Positions 1-10,085 of a stretch of DNA of 34,463 bases are shown here, in pieces. Every line of letters starts with the position of its first letter. Within the stretch, counting starts at the first letter, position 1. Position numbers and translations under genes: made by a program. The stretch comes from a virus. The stretch spans positions 1-34,463 of the IMG/VR virus record IMGVR_UViG_3300005260_000005; one strand, 5' to 3'. The notes beneath the pieces were generated by a model. It did not search any database and was not told the origin of the DNA. It saw only the letters and a list, made by a program, of their open reading frames with translations.

Positions 1-467
1 GCGTCTTAGCTACCCATTCAACCTATGCTTGGTTATTCACTTCAGCGTTAGGTCTAGTCATAGTAGTCTGTTGCTGCTGATTTGCCGTCAGGTCAAATCA
101 AGCTGTGAGCGCGGTTACTTTGTCTCTACCCTACACACCCGGTGTAAAGCGACGGTGTCCGCCTTTCTCATCCTGACTTCAGGATTAGTTCCCTGGCTTC
201 TGGATAGACAATCCATGCCACACATTCCTCGGTCTTCCGACTTGTTGTGCATCACGCTCATAGGCACGGAGGTTATCTGTATCCGCTGCACGGTACTGGA
301 ATGCTACGTCTACGCTACCTGATCCACAGGGCCATCTGGGATAGCTTCAGAGGCTATCTTGCTTGAACAGTGGAAGCAGTTGGGTCAGTGAGGTTGAGAA
401 GTATCACCTACCATTGAAGCTATCGGGTCTCGCTTTTATCACCATCCTACTTCATTACAAATGCTGG

Positions 468-484
468 GTTGGATTTGAACCAAC
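468..484 (-). tRNA. tRNA T-arm-like hairpin A
   Basis: On the minus strand this is GTTGG-TTCAAAT-CCAAC, a perfect five-pair stem with a seven-base loop matching the tRNA T-loop consensus TTCRANN. An acceptor-like segment would follow at 461-467, but I find no matching 5' acceptor strand. Upstream (485-500) the sequence forms a near-palindromic hairpin around GTGAAAC rather than a normal anticodon arm. It is either part of a degenerate tRNA or a T-loop module in a larger RNA. Confidence 0.35.
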
Positions 485-584
485 ATCTATCCGTTTCACG
501 GGATTATTGAAGCCTTACCTGTTGTCATCGTAACTACTACATGGAGGCGCATACCTGGGTCAACTGCTCAGAAGCCCATGCTAC

Positions 585-601
585 GTAGGACTCGAACCTA
601 C
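585..601 (-). tRNA. tRNA T-arm-like hairpin B
   Basis: On the minus strand this is GTAGG-TTCGAGT-CCTAC, a perfect five-pair stem with a canonical T-loop. It starts only 63 nt from hairpin C, which leaves too little room for a normal 72-76 nt tRNA. No complementary 5' acceptor strand for GTAGCAT (578-584 on the opposite strand) is present nearby. Confidence 0.35.
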
Positions 602-646
602 ACCATACTCCACGCCTAGCCGCCAGTCTCCGCCTATTGCTCGGAG

Positions 647-665
647 GATTGGAATCGAACCAATC
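647..665 (-). tRNA. tRNA T-arm-like hairpin C
   Basis: On the minus strand this is a six-pair stem (GATTGG/CCAATC) closing the loop TTCGATT, a canonical T-loop. Upstream on the same strand are further local hairpins (for example AAGG-ACTTG-CCTT near 721-735 and TGAAG/CTTCA near 668-690). They resemble pieces of D, anticodon or variable arms, but their spacing does not give a cloverleaf. Confidence 0.35.
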
Positions 666-1158
666 GGTGAAGGAGACACTCTCTTCAGCCACCAGTATTG
701 CTTCAGATGGTTAGCCATTTAAGGCAAGTCCTTTACCCTCATACGTGCCCTCTACAGAGGTTATGTGAACTATGCACCACAGCTCACAGCATACGCGACA
801 GTCTGTTTGATCTACTGCCATTGTGCTAATGAGACACATGTACAGGTGCACTCGCTACCTTCGCTCACTACCTTGCTCACCGTGAATTCCTAATATAAGT
901 CAGACCTATTTCACCACCGTAGTAGCGTCTGAACCGGTATTGCAGCCGGTGTCACGGACTATTGCTGACGAAGTTTAGGGGCGTCACCCAGATAGTTACA
1001 TTCCCAGTAGGGTTAGTGCTTGGTTCTATAGCCAGGTACCTGAGTCCTGCGGGAGGTTGGGGTATCCCGAAGCGTAGAGGCTTCATGCTATGAATTTCTG
1101 CCTGTCGCGGAGGCGAATCCCACAGGCCCTCTTGCGAGCTGGATCAACGTCGCAGTTA

Positions 1159-1650
1159 TTAAAACAACTGTTCAGGCTGATCCTTTAGACCACGAGCTGC
1201 ATCTTTCGTTTCCTCGGATGCATCACGGTCCATTTCATAAGGAACTAAGTTATCAACTCTAGATGAAACCCATCTAACTCCAATACCTTTGTTACCTTTA
1301 AAGTCATAGGGATATACTTCAATCTTAGTTGTAATGTCTGAACCATTACCAACTAGACCATCGAATGGAACACCATCCTTATCGAATACCTCCGGTGGTT
1401 CGAAGCCAATCTTCTTACCTGATGCTGTCTCTTTGACTACAGGTCTACCGAAGTTAATATACCAACCATCATCATCCTTCTTGATTACATTCTTCATTCC
1501 TTCTGCCTGAAGTTCACGGAGTATCTCCATGCCCTTCTGATCAGGATAAAGTTGATGTGAGTATTTATCCCATTGGTTAACGGTCTTATTTCTGAACCAT
1601 TTACACTTACCTTGAATGAAATAAATACGTGTCTTCTTAAACTGCGGCAT
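1159..1650 (-). CDS. Single-stranded DNA-binding protein, T7 gp2.5-like
   Basis: The 163-residue product is likely the phage ssDNA-binding protein that coats the lagging-strand template at the replication fork. The block around residues 100-137, with GNGSDITTKIEVYPYD and then GIGVRWVSSRVDNLVPY, resembles the OB-fold core of phage SSBs of the gp2.5/DUF2815 kind. The C-terminus (about residues 140-163) is rich in D and E and ends in Phe, like the T7 gp2.5 tail that docks on polymerase and primase-helicase. Its ATG overlaps the stop of the preceding 45-codon gene (TAATG), and it is the last protein gene of the leftward arm, two genes after DNA polymerase. No domain search was possible, so the family call rests on motif recognition. 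Confidence 0.75.
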   Translation of the reverse strand: MPQFKKTRIYFIQGKCKWFRNKTVNQWDKYSHQLYPDQKGMEILRELQAEGMKNVIKKDDDGWYINFGRPVVKETASGKKIGFEPPEVFDKDGVPFDGLVGNGSDITTKIEVYPYDFKGNKGIGVRWVSSRVDNLVPYEMDRDASEETKDAARGLKDQPEQLF

Positions 1651-1787
1651 TAATAATCTTCTCTATCTTCATATGCGTCTATAATCTCCAGTATTAGATC
1701 AACCTGATCTGGTTCCAACAATACCTTGCTGTCTCTGTTAGCTTCCAGGTATGCCGTCAACATATTAATTTCATTAATGTCGATCAT
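1650..1787 (-). CDS. Small acidic hypothetical protein
   Basis: A 45-codon gene starts at an ATG that overlaps the polymerase stop (TGATG) and ends in a TAA that overlaps the SSB ATG (TAATG), so it fits exactly between two replication genes. The product begins MIDINEINMLTAYLEAN and is acidic and probably helical, ending DAYEDREDY. The two perfect start/stop junctions argue that it is translated by coupling with its neighbours. A role as a replisome accessory peptide is possible from position alone. I do not recognise a family. Confidence 0.7.
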   Translation of the reverse strand: MIDINEINMLTAYLEANRDSKVLLEPDQVDLILEIIDAYEDREDY

Positions 1788-3739
1788 CAGTGCGTCTTAC
1801 TCCAATTGGTAGCAATGGTATAGTCCTTGTCGTCATCGTTCCAATACGATCCCGCCAAAGGACAGTGAAGTTTTAGATCTTCGCCTACTTCACGTAGACT
1901 GTCTGCTTGCATCTTAGCTATTCGTATTGCAACCTCCATATTGTTTGGACATTCAGTCTGCCATTCATCATGAACGAAGTTCACTAGCATGGCATCCATG
2001 TCCTTGAGTTTATGCTCCCACTTAAGGGTAGCCATCTTCATCACCACTGCTTCCCCATTCTGCAGGTATCCAGACATACATAGATGTCCTCGTTGTCCAA
2101 CCGTGTCTCCAGGTATTCTAACTGGGCGTCCGTCGAGCCCAGTGAACCAACCTCTCTTAGCGTCCTTAGGAATAACCGTGGTCTTAAGGAACTCGAAACC
2201 AGTATACCTTTGTAGTAATCTGTCAAGTGCTCTCCGGGTTTCTTCATCTTCACAACCCAGTATCTCAGTAAGCTTTCCGGTACCAGCGCCCAGTAACAGG
2301 GCATATATAAACCTCTTTGCTGCCGCTCTGCTTTTACAGACAGGACCGAGAATTCTTTGGTTGAGAGAATGCGGATCACTTTTATCCTCCTTCTTCCCAT
2401 TGACCAAAGCTTCAGTGAACTCTGGATCATTGATGTAATGAGCAAAGATACGAAGCTGAATACCTTCAGCGTCAACACCAACTAACAGTCTATTTTTGGG
2501 AGCCTGCCATAGAGAACGTAGCTCTTTCCCATACAGCTTCTTCTTGCCGGCTGTATCAAACTCATTGGGAATGTTGGCAGTGTTTGGCTGCTGATGAGCC
2601 ATGCGATGAGTCCAAGCGCCGATGCCGTAAAACCGGCCGTGAATACGCTCGTCTGAGGTGACGAGATCTAACCACTCGGTGAGAGTCCGACGCCTGGACT
2701 CAAGCATGATCCGCTTCGCGAGGAAGCGTGCTGGTGCAGGGGCAGTTTGTGGTAAGGTATCCAGATTAGTTTCGTTTACCTTCCATCCTGCCTTCTTCAT
2801 TATTGTAAGTTTATCATACAGCTCCTGAAGCCTTGTGTCAACCTCAGTAGTTCTATGTTTAGTATGTTTTAATCTATTATACTCTCTCTCTGCCTCTATG
2901 TGTGTAGAGGTCTTATCTACAGGTCTCCAACCAGCTTCATTTAAGACATCTACAATCTGTTTATGACTAGAAGGATTAAATTCAACCCATGAACAGAAAC
3001 TAAATGGAGCATCTATAGTAAGACAAGTAAGATCATCTCTAAGTACCTTAGGTATAGAACTAAGACTAATAGTACCATACTTAGTACTCTTAGGGGTTAC
3101 TACTCTGATTAACTTTAACTTAGGAGGAAAGGTATCTAAGATATCTCTATCTAAGATACTTAGTTCTTCTTCTACCTTACTAAGTAACTTAGTAGCTTTA
3201 TCTACATTAAAGCTAAATCCATTAGAACTAAGATTATTAACTATATTCTGAAATCTATGTTCTAAAGATATGCATAAACTATGTTCTTCCTTATTAATAT
3301 ACTTTATATACTTAAGGTATATTAGTTCACAGATATCTACGTCCCTTAGACAGTAGTCCTCCATGGCCTGTGAATACTTAGACCAATCGGAGTAATGACC
3401 CTTTTCCAATCCAAATTCAATTCCGTAGTTCTCAATAGAATGGCCTTGCCTTGGGTAATCAGCCATCTTTGAGATGATGAGAGTGTCAATAACTCTTTCC
3501 GTATCGATCTCAATTCCCAGTAGATTTCTGATAACTGGTAAGTCATAACCGAGAATGTTATGACCGATCCAAAGATTAATATTACTAGCCCAAGCCCTAA
3601 ATCGTTCGTACTCAATGGGGTCATTCGTTAAATTCCTGAAAATGTGATAGGTTTTGGTCTCAATATCCTTGCACACAATCACCCATATCTGTGTGGGATT
3701 GTGTAACCCATTCGCTTCTATGTCTATTACAACCTTCAT
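1787..3739 (-). CDS. DNA polymerase, family A (T7 gp5-like) with 3'-5' exonuclease
   Basis: This 650-residue replicative polymerase is slightly shorter than T7 gp5. The N-terminal proofreading exonuclease shows DIEANGL (D6, E8), a GHNILGYD block (D66) and YCLRDVD (D133). The polymerase domain shows the template-binding segment near 369-391, motif A VDAEGIQLR (D423), motif B from R471 through K475 to Y479, and motif C FVHDEW (H590, D591, E592). All catalytic acids are present, so it should be active. It belongs with the primase-helicase and SSB in a T7-type replisome. The segment 2815-3340, roughly residues 133-308 between exonuclease and palm, is much more AT-rich than the flanks and is dense in CTTAG/CTAAG pentamers, suggesting mosaic origin or an embedded DNA-level signal. 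The stop overlaps the next start. Confidence 0.95.
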   Translation of the reverse strand: MKVVIDIEANGLHNPTQIWVIVCKDIETKTYHIFRNLTNDPIEYERFRAWASNINLWIGHNILGYDLPVIRNLLGIEIDTERVIDTLIISKMADYPRQGHSIENYGIEFGLEKGHYSDWSKYSQAMEDYCLRDVDICELIYLKYIKYINKEEHSLCISLEHRFQNIVNNLSSNGFSFNVDKATKLLSKVEEELSILDRDILDTFPPKLKLIRVVTPKSTKYGTISLSSIPKVLRDDLTCLTIDAPFSFCSWVEFNPSSHKQIVDVLNEAGWRPVDKTSTHIEAEREYNRLKHTKHRTTEVDTRLQELYDKLTIMKKAGWKVNETNLDTLPQTAPAPARFLAKRIMLESRRRTLTEWLDLVTSDERIHGRFYGIGAWTHRMAHQQPNTANIPNEFDTAGKKKLYGKELRSLWQAPKNRLLVGVDAEGIQLRIFAHYINDPEFTEALVNGKKEDKSDPHSLNQRILGPVCKSRAAAKRFIYALLLGAGTGKLTEILGCEDEETRRALDRLLQRYTGFEFLKTTVIPKDAKRGWFTGLDGRPVRIPGDTVGQRGHLCMSGYLQNGEAVVMKMATLKWEHKLKDMDAMLVNFVHDEWQTECPNNMEVAIRIAKMQADSLREVGEDLKLHCPLAGSYWNDDDKDYTIATNWSKTH

Positions 3740-5182: not shown

Positions 5183-5351
5183 TGATGATCTCCAGATGTG
5201 ATGGATCACTCATGAACTTGTAGTTCTCCGGGGTGGTGCACTCCACCAACGTTCTTCCCGTCAGTCCACGATAGACGTCGGTTACTATTCCAAACCACAC
5301 CTGATCGTCGTGGAACTTTCTGATCACTCTCGTCTCGTTGATCTTGAACAT
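5163..5351 (-). CDS. Small beta-rich hypothetical protein, 62 aa
   Basis: The product begins MFKINETRVIRKFHDDQVW and has alternating hydrophobic strands (VWFGIVTDVYRGL, RTLVECTTPENYKFM) that would suit a small SH3-like or OB-like barrel. Its ATG lies immediately after a TAG in the same frame (TAGATG) and right where the conserved UDG domain ends. The 62 codons are overlapped for 146 nt by the C-terminal extension of the UDG frame. By composition this looks like the genuine protein and the UDG tail like the overprint. Confidence 0.6.
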   Translation of the reverse strand: MFKINETRVIRKFHDDQVWFGIVTDVYRGLTGRTLVECTTPENYKFMSDPSHLEIINGPESL

Positions 5352-6012
5352 CTAGTCTCCAATCTATTGCCTTGAGACCCTGGTTCAGTAGTTTATCGTT
5401 GATTGTGGTGAACAATCTGCTGCCCTCGAATGGGGTCTTGGATGCTCTGCTTCCTCTCGGACTAGGATGACTAGTCAGGATCACCTCGTTATTTGTGAGG
5501 TCTACGTATTCGAGGTATCGTCGAGCGACTCCTCCAAGGAACGCAAATACAATTCCCTTATGTGAAAGTTTAGTAATGATCTCGCGGGTGAGCCACGACC
5601 ACTCTTCCCAGTCATGAGATAGAGAAACACCTGATCTGCAACTTGGGATCGCGTTCCATAGAAGTACTCCTTGGTCACTCCATCTGCCAAGATCACCGTG
5701 ATCGGGGATGGGGTATCCCAAGTCGGAATGGTATTCGGAGAAAATGGTTCTAAGCGTGGGCGGGAAGTCTCTTGGTTCAACGCTTCTCGGTATGCTAAAA
5801 GCGTATCCTGTTGCGAATCCTCCTTGGGGATAAGGGTCCTGACCAATGATGGCACAAACCACATCATCAAGACTAGTGCGAGACAAGGCAGCAAAAAGAT
5901 TAGTGCGTCGCGGGTTGTATCCGACATTGGCTCTCTCCATGTCTTTCAAACGTTCATTGACGACTTGCCATTCACCAGATTTCCAGTAGTCCAGGTTCCA
6001 TGGATATCTCAT
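5206..6012 (-). CDS. Uracil-DNA glycosylase (family 1-like)
   Basis: The 268-residue product carries the hallmarks of uracil-DNA N-glycosylase, which removes uracil from DNA. It has IIGQDPYP (57-62) with catalytic Asp59, LLWNA (Asn120, the uracil-binding Asn), FLGGVARRY, and SHPSP (181-185). A terminal IDWRL (216-220) is where this family normally ends. The usual GQDPYH is GQDPYP here. Beyond residue 220 the frame continues for 48 more residues of unlike composition, overprinting the 5163-5351 gene. A two-base loss just before TAGATG would explain this. The start ATG at 6012 has GAGGA six bases upstream. A phage-borne UDG may prevent uracil in its own genome, or help degrade host DNA or repair deamination. 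No dUTPase or thymidylate synthase is seen in the window. Confidence 0.85.
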   Translation of the reverse strand: MRYPWNLDYWKSGEWQVVNERLKDMERANVGYNPRRTNLFAALSRTSLDDVVCAIIGQDPYPQGGFATGYAFSIPRSVEPRDFPPTLRTIFSEYHSDLGYPIPDHGDLGRWSDQGVLLWNAIPSCRSGVSLSHDWEEWSWLTREIITKLSHKGIVFAFLGGVARRYLEYVDLTNNEVILTSHPSPRGSRASKTPFEGSRLFTTINDKLLNQGLKAIDWRLDVQDQRDESDQKVPRRSGVVWNSNRRLSWTDGKNVGGVHHPGELQVHE

Positions 6013-6248: not shown

Positions 6249-7806
6249 CGTAATCCCCTTTCACATTGCTAGGTGGTGGTTCAACAAACTCACTTAAGGT
6301 ATACGCAGCTGGATCAAACAACAGTTCCCCTGCTGGTCCAGTGCGACCGCAGAACCTGTTCTTCGAGACCACCAGTCTGGTAGTACGGCGAACAACAGGG
6401 TCTGCCGATGTTACATCTCTATATAGATCAACACGGATATCTGCGATCTTGGAGATGTTACGACTGCCACGAGTTAGACCATCATCATTGACATGGCTGA
6501 CAACAATCAATGCGAAGTCCAACTCCTTGACCATCATTTCGAGACGAGTCGAGAGATAGTCGAGGCTAGTCCTTTCGTCTTTTCCTCCAAGACCACTAAC
6601 AACCATAGTAATGTGGTCGAGAAGAATATACCGGCAACCACGTGCGGATACCAGAAATCTAATGGTATCGAGGATAACCTCAGGATCATCTGATCCAAAG
6701 TGAGAATAGATGTGCAAACGCTCGTCCACCCTAACCACGTCTTGTACGGCGCGAAAAGTTTCTGCATCTGATACACCACTGTCAGGCAGGTGAGCAGGGC
6801 ACTGCAGGTGAATTCCTGCAATGGCTTGTAGATGACGCTTCTTCGGTTCCTCCAGGAATATCGCCCCAATTGGCTCGTCCGTCTCAAGAAGTAGCTGGTG
6901 CTCGATTGCATGCATCACCTCTGTTTTACCCACACCTTCCTGAGCCGTGATCAACACTGACTCTCCGGTGCGGATGCCATAAGTCATGTAGTTCAAGGTT
7001 GGAAATGGATATGGCACACCGAGCTTAGGCTTCTCATTGATGATCTTCTCGAACTCATGCCACGAGGAGACGATCGTTTCAGGGAGAAACTTCTTGGCTC
7101 CGTGCCATAAGGTTAGAAGCTCGTCCCTTTCTCCGGCCCGTAGATAATCGTTGGCGTCTTTGCGGGTGCCGCCGGGATATCGCACCACGAAAACCTTGTT
7201 GTAATCAAACAGCTTTGCAACTTTAGCAGCTGCTTCACGTCCTGCTTCATCTCCGTCAAACGCCAGTACAATCTTGTCGAATGAGTTAACCCAGGATCGA
7301 TCCACGCTACAGTCAGCAAAAGCACTAGAAGCGCTGTGAACGCTGACGACAGGACTGCGTAGAACTTGCCAAAGCGATAAAGCATCTAACTCTCCCTCAG
7401 TTATGGTAACTGTCTTGTTACCGGCCGCCATAAACCTATCACGACCAAATAAACCAGCTTTGCTTATATCGCCTTGCGAGTAAAATGATTTCTTATCTAG
7501 AAGGCGAACTTTGTAACTAGAATTAGGATAAGGATAACCAATAGAAATCGGTCTGCCATCTCCATCGATTTTAGTTCTCGCTCTATAGAACTCAAACGTT
7601 TCTCTACTGACGTTTCTCCATGGCAGGTACTCATAGGTATAGGTTTCTTCATTATCATTCTCTGATTTGGTATATGTTAAACAACTGAAGCAGTAACTGT
7701 GGCCATCTGCGTACTTGCACAGAGCATCAGATGAGCCACAGTCGGGGCAAGGAACATGCTGTTCCGTTACGGTCGATTTAGGTAACTGTAAAACTTGATC
7801 AGCCAA
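6208..7806 (-). CDS. Primase-helicase, T7 gp4-like
   Basis: This 532-residue fusion primes lagging-strand synthesis and unwinds DNA as a ring hexamer. The N-terminal zinc-binding domain has CPDC (C20, C23) and CFSC (C39, C42). The TOPRIM primase domain shows TITEGELDAL (E137) and LAFDGDEAGR (D184, D186). The RecA-like helicase has Walker A EGVGKTE (291-295), Walker B YILLDH (D397), a SHVNDDG segment near 437-443, and SKNRFCGRTGPAG with candidate arginine-finger residues R484 and R488. An in-frame TAG directly precedes TTG at 7806, and no other start precedes the zinc finger, so a TTG start is required. It overlaps the upstream gene by 40 nt, consistent with coupling. The length is close to T7 gp4 (566). 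Confidence 0.93.
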   Translation of the reverse strand: MADQVLQLPKSTVTEQHVPCPDCGSSDALCKYADGHSYCFSCLTYTKSENDNEETYTYEYLPWRNVSRETFEFYRARTKIDGDGRPISIGYPYPNSSYKVRLLDKKSFYSQGDISKAGLFGRDRFMAAGNKTVTITEGELDALSLWQVLRSPVVSVHSASSAFADCSVDRSWVNSFDKIVLAFDGDEAGREAAAKVAKLFDYNKVFVVRYPGGTRKDANDYLRAGERDELLTLWHGAKKFLPETIVSSWHEFEKIINEKPKLGVPYPFPTLNYMTYGIRTGESVLITAQEGVGKTEVMHAIEHQLLLETDEPIGAIFLEEPKKRHLQAIAGIHLQCPAHLPDSGVSDAETFRAVQDVVRVDERLHIYSHFGSDDPEVILDTIRFLVSARGCRYILLDHITMVVSGLGGKDERTSLDYLSTRLEMMVKELDFALIVVSHVNDDGLTRGSRNISKIADIRVDLYRDVTSADPVVRRTTRLVVSKNRFCGRTGPAGELLFDPAAYTLSEFVEPPPSNVKGDYDAQSYPWRDSVVA

Positions 7807-8432
7807 CTACGATCTTCTTTCGGTTCTAAAATACGTACAGGTTCAAATAGAAATCCCCCATCCAGAAGATCATTCCAGTAGCTACGGAGACCGAAGTACA
7901 TCCAAGCTTCTATGGGTTCAACTCGTTCGGGAAGGAGGAAGTGTTTGTTGCCCTGCAGGGTGTAAGGCAATGGCTTGCCATCTGTGGTCTTGTTGACCAC
8001 CTGCCCATGCTGGCGGAAGGGATAGAGAATATGAACTCTATGCCTTTTGTATTGTACTCCGTTCTGGTAATGATTGTCAAGCTTAACCATACCATCCACG
8101 GACTCAACACAATGGATTTCACCCTTGATCTTCAGGGCTGAGAAATCATATCGGTCTTTATAGACCTTATTCGGACGCATCACAACACCAGCTCCATCAA
8201 CCCTACGGCGATAGAACTGATATGGTCTCTGAGTGAAACCTCGGCAGACATAAGCAGAATTCTCTCGGATAATCTGATATCTCTGGCCTGCCTTCATCAG
8301 ATCATCACACACGAACACCAGTTGGAACTGGCTCTGCTCAAGCAATGTGATGTCTGGAGTGAATTTACTACGGATCAAGGCTTCTTGAACGATTGCCTTG
8401 GCATTGACCTTGGGAAATAGCATGTCAAACAT
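7767..8432 (-). CDS. Gamma-glutamylcyclotransferase/AIG2-like fold protein
   Basis: The frame opens at 8444, but GGAGG sits five bases before the ATG at 8432 (MFDMLFPKV), so I use that start; the product is 221 aa. Residues 37-49 (QLVFVCDDLMKAG) resemble the GGCT/AIG2 signature xFVYGTLxxG, and residues 102-133 (IKGEIHCV, then LDNHYQNGVQYKRHRV) resemble the conserved GEVYxV...LDxxEG...YxRxxV block. By eye, the catalytic Glu of LDxxEG falls on Tyr122 here, so activity is doubtful. Phage GGCT-like proteins are known beside GATase-II and amidoligase genes, and a GATase-II-like gene is the next one upstream. The assignment is by motif only. Confidence 0.5.
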   Translation of the reverse strand: MFDMLFPKVNAKAIVQEALIRSKFTPDITLLEQSQFQLVFVCDDLMKAGQRYQIIRENSAYVCRGFTQRPYQFYRRRVDGAGVVMRPNKVYKDRYDFSALKIKGEIHCVESVDGMVKLDNHYQNGVQYKRHRVHILYPFRQHGQVVNKTTDGKPLPYTLQGNKHFLLPERVEPIEAWMYFGLRSYWNDLLDGGFLFEPVRILEPKEDRSWLIKFYSYLNRP

Positions 8433-8573
8433 TGATTCCTCCATTCAGAAGCTTGAATTCACCTTGCGGGAATTCAGCAGCGAATGGGTGCCGGCTTCCG
8501 AATGCCTAGTCCGTCTACCGACACCCACCGATCAACCGACTATCCCTGACAAAGTAGCCGGTCAATTGCTGTG

Positions 8574-10085
8574 TTAGGCAGCGGACTTCTTGCCCCAGAT
8601 CAGGGCACGCTTCTCACCCGCAGTCTTGGACTGCTGCGGAGGAATCTCCTTCACGATGGTCGTGTTGCCGACTTGTTTGACTTCCTTGGCCGTACCGACC
8701 AGATCTTCCAGCTTGATCTGGCTGTTCTTCAGGGAGCTATACTTGAACTCCAGAAGTGCCAGGATCAGAGCCTTCTTGTCGAACTGGTTCCAATCATGGA
8801 CGGTCAGACGATACATGTCCGTGAATGGAATGCCGAACTTGTTGGAGAATGTTGGCCACGGAGCTTCCATCTTCTGAATATCCAGAGGACTGGGAGCCTT
8901 CTCACGATCCAGGAAGTTGGCCAAGACCTGAGTAGCCTCGGACATCTCCTTGTCATCCAGAGTTGGCAGGAAATCAGCTGGACTGGACTTCTTATCTTCG
9001 ACCTTAACAGGCTCAGCCGTCTTCATATCCTTCGGCTGTTCCTTCTTGGCTCCAGTGCGAATCTCTTCTTCCAGCATGTCGATGTCAGCACTGGTCTTGA
9101 CATCTCGCTTGGTGAACTCGACACGACCAGGATCGACCCAAATCTTCAGATCCTGCATGACGTGGTTCTCGGGCAGCTTGCCATTGTTGAACAACCTGAT
9201 CCAACGATTGCGAGCCTTGCCTTCGAGCTTCTTGGGCACCTGAACCTGGACCTTACCTGCGTTGATGGCAGTATCGGTCTTGGGTGGCTCAGTGACCTTC
9301 GGAGGCACGGCATGCACGCCATCAGGCAGCTTGGGACCAGTCGGTTCGCCACCAACAGGAGGCTTCTTGCCGAAAAGAACCTTCTTGACGCCATCGGAAA
9401 CAGCTGCCGCAGCGTTCGTGATAGGTTTTTTCTCTTCTTTCTTCGCATCCCAGTTGTGATGCTGAGATGTGGTACCCCAATCATAGCCACGACCGAGGTC
9501 CTCGTTGTTGCCGAACTTGACTGCATCACCTTCGATGGGCAGGAACACCAACGCACATCGATGACCCGCCTGTGCCTTCACATCCTTCTCGAACGAAGGC
9601 TTGTGCAGACGTGCCACGAATGCAGCAATGTCCTGCTTGCAGTCCTCGAAGATCTCACCCAGCTTGGGCATGAGATATTCTTCATAGAAGTTGTACTCGT
9701 CCGTGTGACCGGAATCAGGTTTGGAGTATGTCGGGAAGTCGCCTTCCACGAATACGGAAAGAATGTCAGTACCGGCGGTATCATTCTCGTCGGCAAAGAT
9801 GGTCACGGTGAACGGCTGTATATCATCTGCGGTATGCTCGCCGGGCATGTTGGCCATGTACAGAACCAACTCCGAATCCTTCGTAGCTGTGTTTAGCTTC
9901 TCCAGATCGGAAACCTGAATGGACTTATCGGTCTTTTCAACCGATAGTACATTAGCATCGCCTTCTTTGTCACGGACAGCAAAGCCCGAGACTGTGGGAC
10001 ACACCTTGGATGCTGTCTCCAGCAGAGCCGAAGGGATCAAGTGTCCGGGTAGCTTGTGAATGATTGATTGAGGTTGATTGATCAT
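8574..10085 (-). CDS. GATase-II-like N-terminal domain protein, probably catalytically degenerate
   Basis: The product is 503 aa. The first 30 residues (SIIHKLPGHLIPSALLETAS) resemble phage class-II glutamine amidotransferase-like proteins that begin MCxIIHKPAG, and MPGEHTADDIQPF (about 81-93) resembles the substrate-binding region before the HPF motif. The nucleophilic Cys2 is missing (the protein starts MINQPQ), so amidotransfer by the usual mechanism is unlikely. Residues ~235-300 are a Lys/Pro/Gly-rich linker. The C-terminal half (about 300-503) is unrecognised and helical, and ends KRALIWGKKSAA. GC content is higher than in late genes. It may act as a structural or modification protein paired with the GGCT-like gene downstream. 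GAGAGAG precedes the ATG. Confidence 0.4.
   Translation of the reverse strand: MINQPQSIIHKLPGHLIPSALLETASKVCPTVSGFAVRDKEGDANVLSVEKTDKSIQVSDLEKLNTATKDSELVLYMANMPGEHTADDIQPFTVTIFADENDTAGTDILSVFVEGDFPTYSKPDSGHTDEYNFYEEYLMPKLGEIFEDCKQDIAAFVARLHKPSFEKDVKAQAGHRCALVFLPIEGDAVKFGNNEDLGRGYDWGTTSQHHNWDAKKEEKKPITNAAAAVSDGVKKVLFGKKPPVGGEPTGPKLPDGVHAVPPKVTEPPKTDTAINAGKVQVQVPKKLEGKARNRWIRLFNNGKLPENHVMQDLKIWVDPGRVEFTKRDVKTSADIDMLEEEIRTGAKKEQPKDMKTAEPVKVEDKKSSPADFLPTLDDKEMSEATQVLANFLDREKAPSPLDIQKMEAPWPTFSNKFGIPFTDMYRLTVHDWNQFDKKALILALLEFKYSSLKNSQIKLEDLVGTAKEVKQVGNTTIVKEIPPQQSKTAGEKRALIWGKKSAA

Follow-up and report, generated by a model that had tools for sequence, protein, structure and literature searches.

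A large structured RNA, apparently of a new class, at a conserved site in the replication arm of uncultured phages

A conserved structured RNA at the end of a phage contig

The gene-free left end of the phage contig analyzed here almost certainly belongs to a conserved class of structured RNA. The sequence under study, hereafter the window, is a linear IMG/VR virus record of 34,463 bases, and the RNA occupies positions 1..1100 on its minus strand, with the 5' end near 1100 and the 3' part cut by the contig end at position 1. This assignment is based on homology to eight loci from related phages (L004, L005, L007-L010, L077 and L094) and on covariation among them. Sequence comparison reveals a conserved, folded, multi-domain RNA at one fixed site in these relatives, and searches of Rfam 15 and of open-access papers returned no description of it. 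We consider it to represent a hitherto undescribed class of large structured RNAs in phages. Large structured RNAs of bacteria and phages, such as OLE, GOLLD and ROOL, are few and their role is an open question; the putative class is larger than all three and occupies a single conserved site across numerous diverged phages.

The left end of the window is non-coding

Relatives were gathered through the family A DNA polymerase gene of the window (1787..3739, minus strand; PHROG 17, E 1e-101), which yielded 79 loci. The related genomes measure about 50-51 kb compared to 34,463 bases for the window, which thus probably lacks about 16 kb and has a contig end as its left end. Towards position 1, the leftward arm encodes a primase/helicase, the DNA polymerase, a 45-codon ORF and a gp2.5-like single-strand DNA-binding protein (SSB; 1159..1650, minus strand; PHROG 112, E 5e-7), which lies immediately upstream of the RNA and is followed by gene-free sequence down to position 1. 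Among the other genes of this replication arm, we noted a uracil-DNA glycosylase superfamily protein (5206-6012, minus strand; PF03167, E 2e-9) and, beside the primase/helicase, two minus-strand ORFs without PHROG or Pfam match (8574-10085, 503 aa; 7767-8444, 225 aa). The polymerase genes of L078, L079 and L080 carry an insertion of about 300-400 bp near query residues 330-364 (about locus positions 7030-7460), for which no Rfam intron match was found.

The original prediction had described positions 1-1158 as lacking any plausible gene, and this was borne out. The longest stop-free run on the transcribed (minus) strand is 63 codons under translation table 11, or 95 if TGA is read, and no ORF in the region keeps its position across the window and its homologues. 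The majority of the indels that separate the relatives here are not multiples of 3. One 106-codon plus-strand frame (2-322), antisense to the RNA and running off the contig, was considered as a gene and rejected: substitutions are spread evenly over its three codon positions, and stops interrupt it in six of seven relatives. A coding role for either strand, including one that depends on a reassigned stop codon, was likewise discarded given the lack of positional conservation and of codon-position bias. Judged from these sequence properties, the minus strand of 1-1158 is non-coding.

The region had also been placed at the end of the leftward arm. Its gene-free nature stands, but it is the contig and not the RNA that ends at position 1, and the relatives continue beyond this point. 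At the other border, conservation does not extend into the first ~60 nt past the SSB stop codon (about 1099-1158). This stretch between the SSB stop and the conserved RNA includes a variable, G+C-rich 5' hairpin (1100..1127, minus strand) that is near-identical in L009 and absent from the other close relatives (alignment A4); within the otherwise unconserved spacer, it has perhaps been exchanged or is mobile.

Homologues and sequence conservation

Seven relatives share the region with the window (L004, L005, L007, L008, L009, L010 and L077). Identity to the window in the longer blocks is mostly 64-76% at the nucleotide level, with indels between the blocks. An eighth homologue, L094, was identified in a motif scan, and L091 scores identically to it. 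The whole element is present in eight relatives, where it spans 1.15-1.40 kb. Since the first seven relatives have 1153-1401 nt between the SSB stop and the small ORF that comes next, the window contains most of the RNA. Among the conserved blocks are ACCCCAMCCUC, AUGAGGRUAAAGGNCUUG, GACUGGCGRC and a bipartite motif discussed below. Additional candidate carriers were judged to be chance matches, namely L084 and L088 from a scan with a 19-base motif and two bacterial contigs that hold the second motif, the sole core-motif occurrences in GTDB genomes. A blastn search of cultured phages with the region as query gave no match.

Structure is evident from comparison with relatives

The original prediction had called the region hairpin-rich from the single sequence. 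This description did not hold, as 200-nt windows of the minus strand have a mean z of 0.0 relative to dinucleotide shuffles and folding of the region by itself is no better than that of coding controls. Hairpin-richness seen by eye is therefore no evidence, because the fold of the sequence alone is no stabler than that of shuffles; the structure is demonstrated solely through comparison with relatives, all alignments being sequence-based.

In a 13-sequence alignment of the module formed by a hexaloop hairpin and a T-arm-like hairpin, 10 of 12 pairs showed compensatory changes. Over the whole region, alifold z-scores reach down to about -7, with the two strands not strongly separated. Helices with at least two, three or four compensated pairs number 46, 24 and 7, respectively, compared to about 20, 5 and 1 in column-shuffled alignments. 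The consensus structure comprises 244 pairs in 45 helices. It accommodates 91.6% of the cells as paired, versus 80.3% after shuffling and 36-40% when the partners are slid. Changes on both sides affect 115 pairs (240 cells), compared to 55 and 77 in shuffled alignments; none of 500 shuffles equalled any of these measures.

Because the consensus was predicted from the same alignment on which it was counted, we repeated the analysis leaving out each of the nine sequences in turn, which reduces but does not remove the circularity. The structure derived from the other eight sequences pairs at 81-94% of the held-out positions and is supported in nine of nine cases. Where the 5' base departs from the majority, pairing is still 1.6-2.0 times that expected by chance; for the window sequence, 41 of 62 such positions are paired versus 23 expected. 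Together with the lack of any coding signal, the region thus displays a conserved secondary structure with compensatory changes, as is characteristic of a large structured non-coding RNA. Of the readings offered beforehand, that of a new ornate RNA is the one supported by covariation, leave-one-out pairing, conserved sequence blocks and synteny. Ordinary tRNAs, absence of covariation and protein genes in homologues had been named as findings that would count against it, and none of them was observed.

Domain architecture of the RNA

All parts of the predicted fold are given here on the minus strand. The 5' domain (735..1082; helices 1-14) is closed by the helix 1082-1077/740-735 and contains several covarying hairpins as well as long-range helices at 1016-993/870-851. 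The central domain follows (425..731), bounded by a long-range closing helix (731-705/447-425; helices 15-18). The outer part of this closing helix (helix 15) is invariant and is a purely predicted pairing, whereas the inner part covaries. Its 3' strand falls in the most conserved block of the RNA, UAAUGNAGUAGG-N5-GAUAAAAGCGAGA (425..461; alignments A2 and A4).

Within the central domain, T-arm-like hairpin 1, GGTTCGATTCC (647..665; helix 21), has compensatory changes in five of six pairs and is followed by another covarying hairpin (646-628; helix 22). T-arm-like hairpin 2, GGTTCGAGTCC (585..601), was assigned from the motif and the helix list (columns 857-860/868-871); it is weaker, the alignment is poor at this point, and some relatives lack the hairpin. 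Further on, the hexaloop hairpin (487..506; helix 26) combines a conserved KUGMAA loop with a freely covarying 7-bp stem, in which six of seven pairs are compensated. T-arm-like hairpin 3, GGTTCAAATCC (468..484), comes immediately after it, and covariance model R1 matches at 422-520. The 3' domain is incomplete in the window (1..413; helices 28-41), reaching from about 413 past position 1, and includes hairpins such as 413-404/391-382, 304-300/226-222, 215-209/207-201 and 54-44/29-20. With its sequence diversity and compensatory changes, the RNA is a good target for structure determination.

T-arm-like hairpins do not derive from tRNA genes

The three T-arm-like sequences noted earlier on the transcribed strand were recovered. 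The motif GGTTCRANTCC occurs at 471-481, 588-598 and 651-661, always on the minus strand and nowhere else in the window, where 0.15 occurrences are expected; none of 100 shuffles reached three. This enrichment extends to the relatives. In the spaces between the SSB gene and the gene of a downstream exonuclease, the count of T-arm-like hairpins is 113 on the transcribed strand versus 6 on the opposite one, compared to 21 versus 21 outside these spaces in four times the amount of DNA.

Neighbouring tRNA genes are common for GOLLD, and the original prediction had pointed to this setting for GOLLD and ROOL. It was not found here, as ARAGORN detected no tRNA in the window and a single one in each of 4 of the 49 relatives scanned. 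The three T-arm-like sequences on the transcribed strand would also suit a decayed tRNA array, which had been put forward as the simpler alternative. We regard such an array as extremely unlikely. Neither ARAGORN nor Rfam, the latter even at E<=10 in positions 1-1300, found a tRNA, and the T-arms all lie on a single strand with no cloverleaf around them. Decay is rejected because the T-arm stems are maintained by compensatory changes across phages; moreover, the conserved blocks are mostly not tRNA-like, and we found no intact tRNA genes at these positions in close relatives. A short reading frame on the same transcript as a T-arm-like hairpin is also reminiscent of tmRNA. Unlike tmRNA, the phage RNA has no acceptor stem or tRNA-like end, carries several T-arms and is accompanied by an ORF with its own ribosome-binding site; ARAGORN tmRNA and Rfam searches were negative.

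The element is widespread at one genomic site

Gene order in the relatives is gp2.5-like SSB, RNA, a mini-ORF ending in Pro-Pro-stop, a small lysine-rich protein and a Cas4-like exonuclease (PHROG 1990). The space from SSB to exonuclease is about 1.5-3.8 kb in about 60 loci of uncultured phages, and most of these spaces contain more than 1 kb without forward ORFs of 80 codons. With a covariance model built for the module of hexaloop hairpin and T-arm, we matched 21 sequences at E<0.06, eight of which were beyond the 13 used in building it. Of the 36 matches with E<=1 outside the window, 35 share the strand of the polymerase, as do both matches in the window. About 54 nt separate the corresponding two genes in the cultured Roseobacter phage CRP-13, which has neither the space nor the mini-ORF, and the outgroup loci L069, L072 and L073 are without space, T-arms and mini-ORF.

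Most subclades are too diverged from one another at the DNA level for a single alignment, and the others could not be aligned over their full length with the clade of the window. Several of them have strongly negative alifold z-scores of their own. Position and motifs, rather than full alignment, suggest that these regions are elements of the same kind.

A Pro-Pro-stop mini-ORF and a small protein follow the RNA

The window is cut before the mini-ORF and the small-protein gene, and both are presumed for this phage from its relatives. There, the mini-ORF begins right after the RNA, has 8-28 codons and a Shine-Dalgarno sequence, and mostly ends in -(R/Q)PP after a variable N-terminal part (for example L005:9831-9872, L007:6880-6921 and L010:10206-10247, with equivalents in about 58 loci). 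A Pro-Pro-stop ending is seen in 58 of the 71 regions, UAA being the stop codon in 57 of these, compared to 4 of 787 comparable ORFs ending in PP elsewhere in the same loci. Of the 13 regions without a scored mini-ORF, eight are on truncated contigs, including the window, and three have a PP-UAA outside our ORF criteria; just L051 and L079 lack it.

In E. coli, a Pro-Pro at the C terminus disturbs termination (PMC3834316). The mini-ORF combines a conserved short frame, a ribosome-binding site and a stall-prone C terminus, and in sequence it looks like a conserved ribosome-arrest leader peptide. In the clade of the window, it is followed by a G+C-rich covarying hairpin, and its CUCCU might pair with the AGGAG of the gene that follows. 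Leader peptides that arrest at the stop codon, TnaC for example, are encoded by a short ORF upstream of a gene and have a proline ahead of the stop codon. The mini-ORF of the relatives resembles them in these respects and differs in having two prolines and a variable N-terminal part and in following a kilobase RNA; its stalling is a prediction.

The gene after the mini-ORF encodes a lysine-rich protein with a median of about 100 residues (for example L008:8389-8682 and L005:9942-10235, and equivalents). A strongly hydrophobic 19-residue stretch is present in 53 of 56 of these proteins, near the C terminus in those inspected. We found no convincing family match in Pfam or PHROG and recognised no RNA-binding motif. 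In many subclades, the N terminus of the protein is rich in Trp, Tyr and Pro-Pro. A scan of L010 for sigma-70 promoters and terminators gave nothing above shuffles.

Proposed role of the RNA and competing explanations

While the structure is read directly from the comparison, the function of the RNA is what we infer. We favour, as the somewhat better bet, a new class of ornate phage RNA that acts as an RNA or RNA-protein particle, probably together with the adjacent membrane protein; the mini-ORF would control the expression of that protein. The RNA would be transcribed leftward together with the replication genes and would itself be the product, although it may turn out to be a mere segment of a longer mRNA. 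Its T-loops could serve as tertiary docking modules that hold the large particle together, and the particle and the small membrane protein might cooperate in phage replication, broadly as OLE RNA does with OapA. The C-terminal Pro-Pro of the mini-ORF would slow termination and thereby set membrane-protein expression via the following hairpin and ribosome-binding site. This specific mechanism, with its particle, membrane protein and mini-ORF control, we put forward only tentatively.

The main rival, owing to the invariant position and the leader-type ORF that follows, is a giant 5' leader that would regulate the mini-ORF and the genes for the membrane protein and the exonuclease in cis, at the level of transcription or translation. 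The Pro-Pro-stop ORF would then be the leader peptide, and the RNA would have no function of its own. Such a leader would explain why the element has the same position in about 60 phages and never occurs elsewhere, and why it is directly followed by an ORF of leader type, a hairpin with covariation and a potential CUCCU/AGGAG pairing at the next ribosome-binding site. However, at least 1.1 kb and three domains far exceed known leaders, the mini-ORF and hairpin alone would be enough for attenuation, and a fixed neighbour is also kept by several ornate RNAs, as in the case of ole and oapA. We regard the leader as a possible explanation, yet not a probable one.

T-loops are general tertiary motifs, and the phage RNA lacks an acceptor stem, a D-arm and an anticodon-like 7-nt loop. 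Both points weigh against an RNA that engages ribosomes, with T-arm modules mimicking tRNA surfaces and the mini-ORF parking a ribosome at its Pro-Pro-stop, such that ribosomes would be captured or controlled during infection. What speaks for it is the enrichment of T-arms on one strand, the near-universal Pro-Pro-stop ORF, and the precedents that GOLLD pulls down ribosomes (PMC12286853) and that OLE binds the ribosomal protein bS21, which links OLE to translation (PMC12054373). Overall, we find it quite improbable. An extension of the favoured particle, which we consider doubtful, would unite a T-arm-studded kilobase RNA, a ribosome-parking mini-ORF on its 3' side and the membrane protein into a membrane-tethered particle that captures or controls ribosomes in phage replication; if true, this three-part module would be unlike any described. 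The two constant neighbours of the RNA, Pro-Pro-stop mini-ORF and small membrane protein, provide direct handles on its function.

Comparison with GOLLD, ROOL and OLE

At gathering score, Rfam searches of the window and about two dozen relatives returned nothing in the region, GOLLD, ROOL, OLE and tRNA included. The sole matches in 1-1300 at E<=10, EFASI (E 2.2) and P10 (E 9.9), are at chance level. By this search, the RNA appears to be a member of none of the three large RNA classes. GOLLD and ROOL are large structured RNAs of phages and prophages whose function is unknown (PMC12286853), and as giant phage RNAs they are the closest genomic kind. The original prediction had named both as candidates; no match to either covariance model was obtained, be it in the relatives or, at a permissive E<=10, in the window. 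A divergent GOLLD or ROOL RNA would agree with a large phage RNA that has a variable 5' end and no known function, but we deem it very unlikely: GOLLD and ROOL measure about 0.6-0.8 kb versus 1.15-1.40 kb for the phage RNA, which does not lie beside tRNA genes and has different neighbours.

For function, the closest model is OLE with OapA of Bacillota. OLE and oapA colocalise, and the two form a membrane RNP (PMC12265935). Like OLE, the phage RNA is large and ornate, with many conserved nucleotides, and it lies beside the gene of a membrane protein with a charged face. The likeness is one of analogy only, as oapA was not found beside the phage RNA and the neighbour in the relatives is an unrelated-looking protein of about 100 aa. 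OLE is bacterial and about 600 nt long, and the phage RNA gave no Rfam match to it; OapA has 21 kDa and four predicted membrane helices, compared to the single hydrophobic segment of the phage protein.
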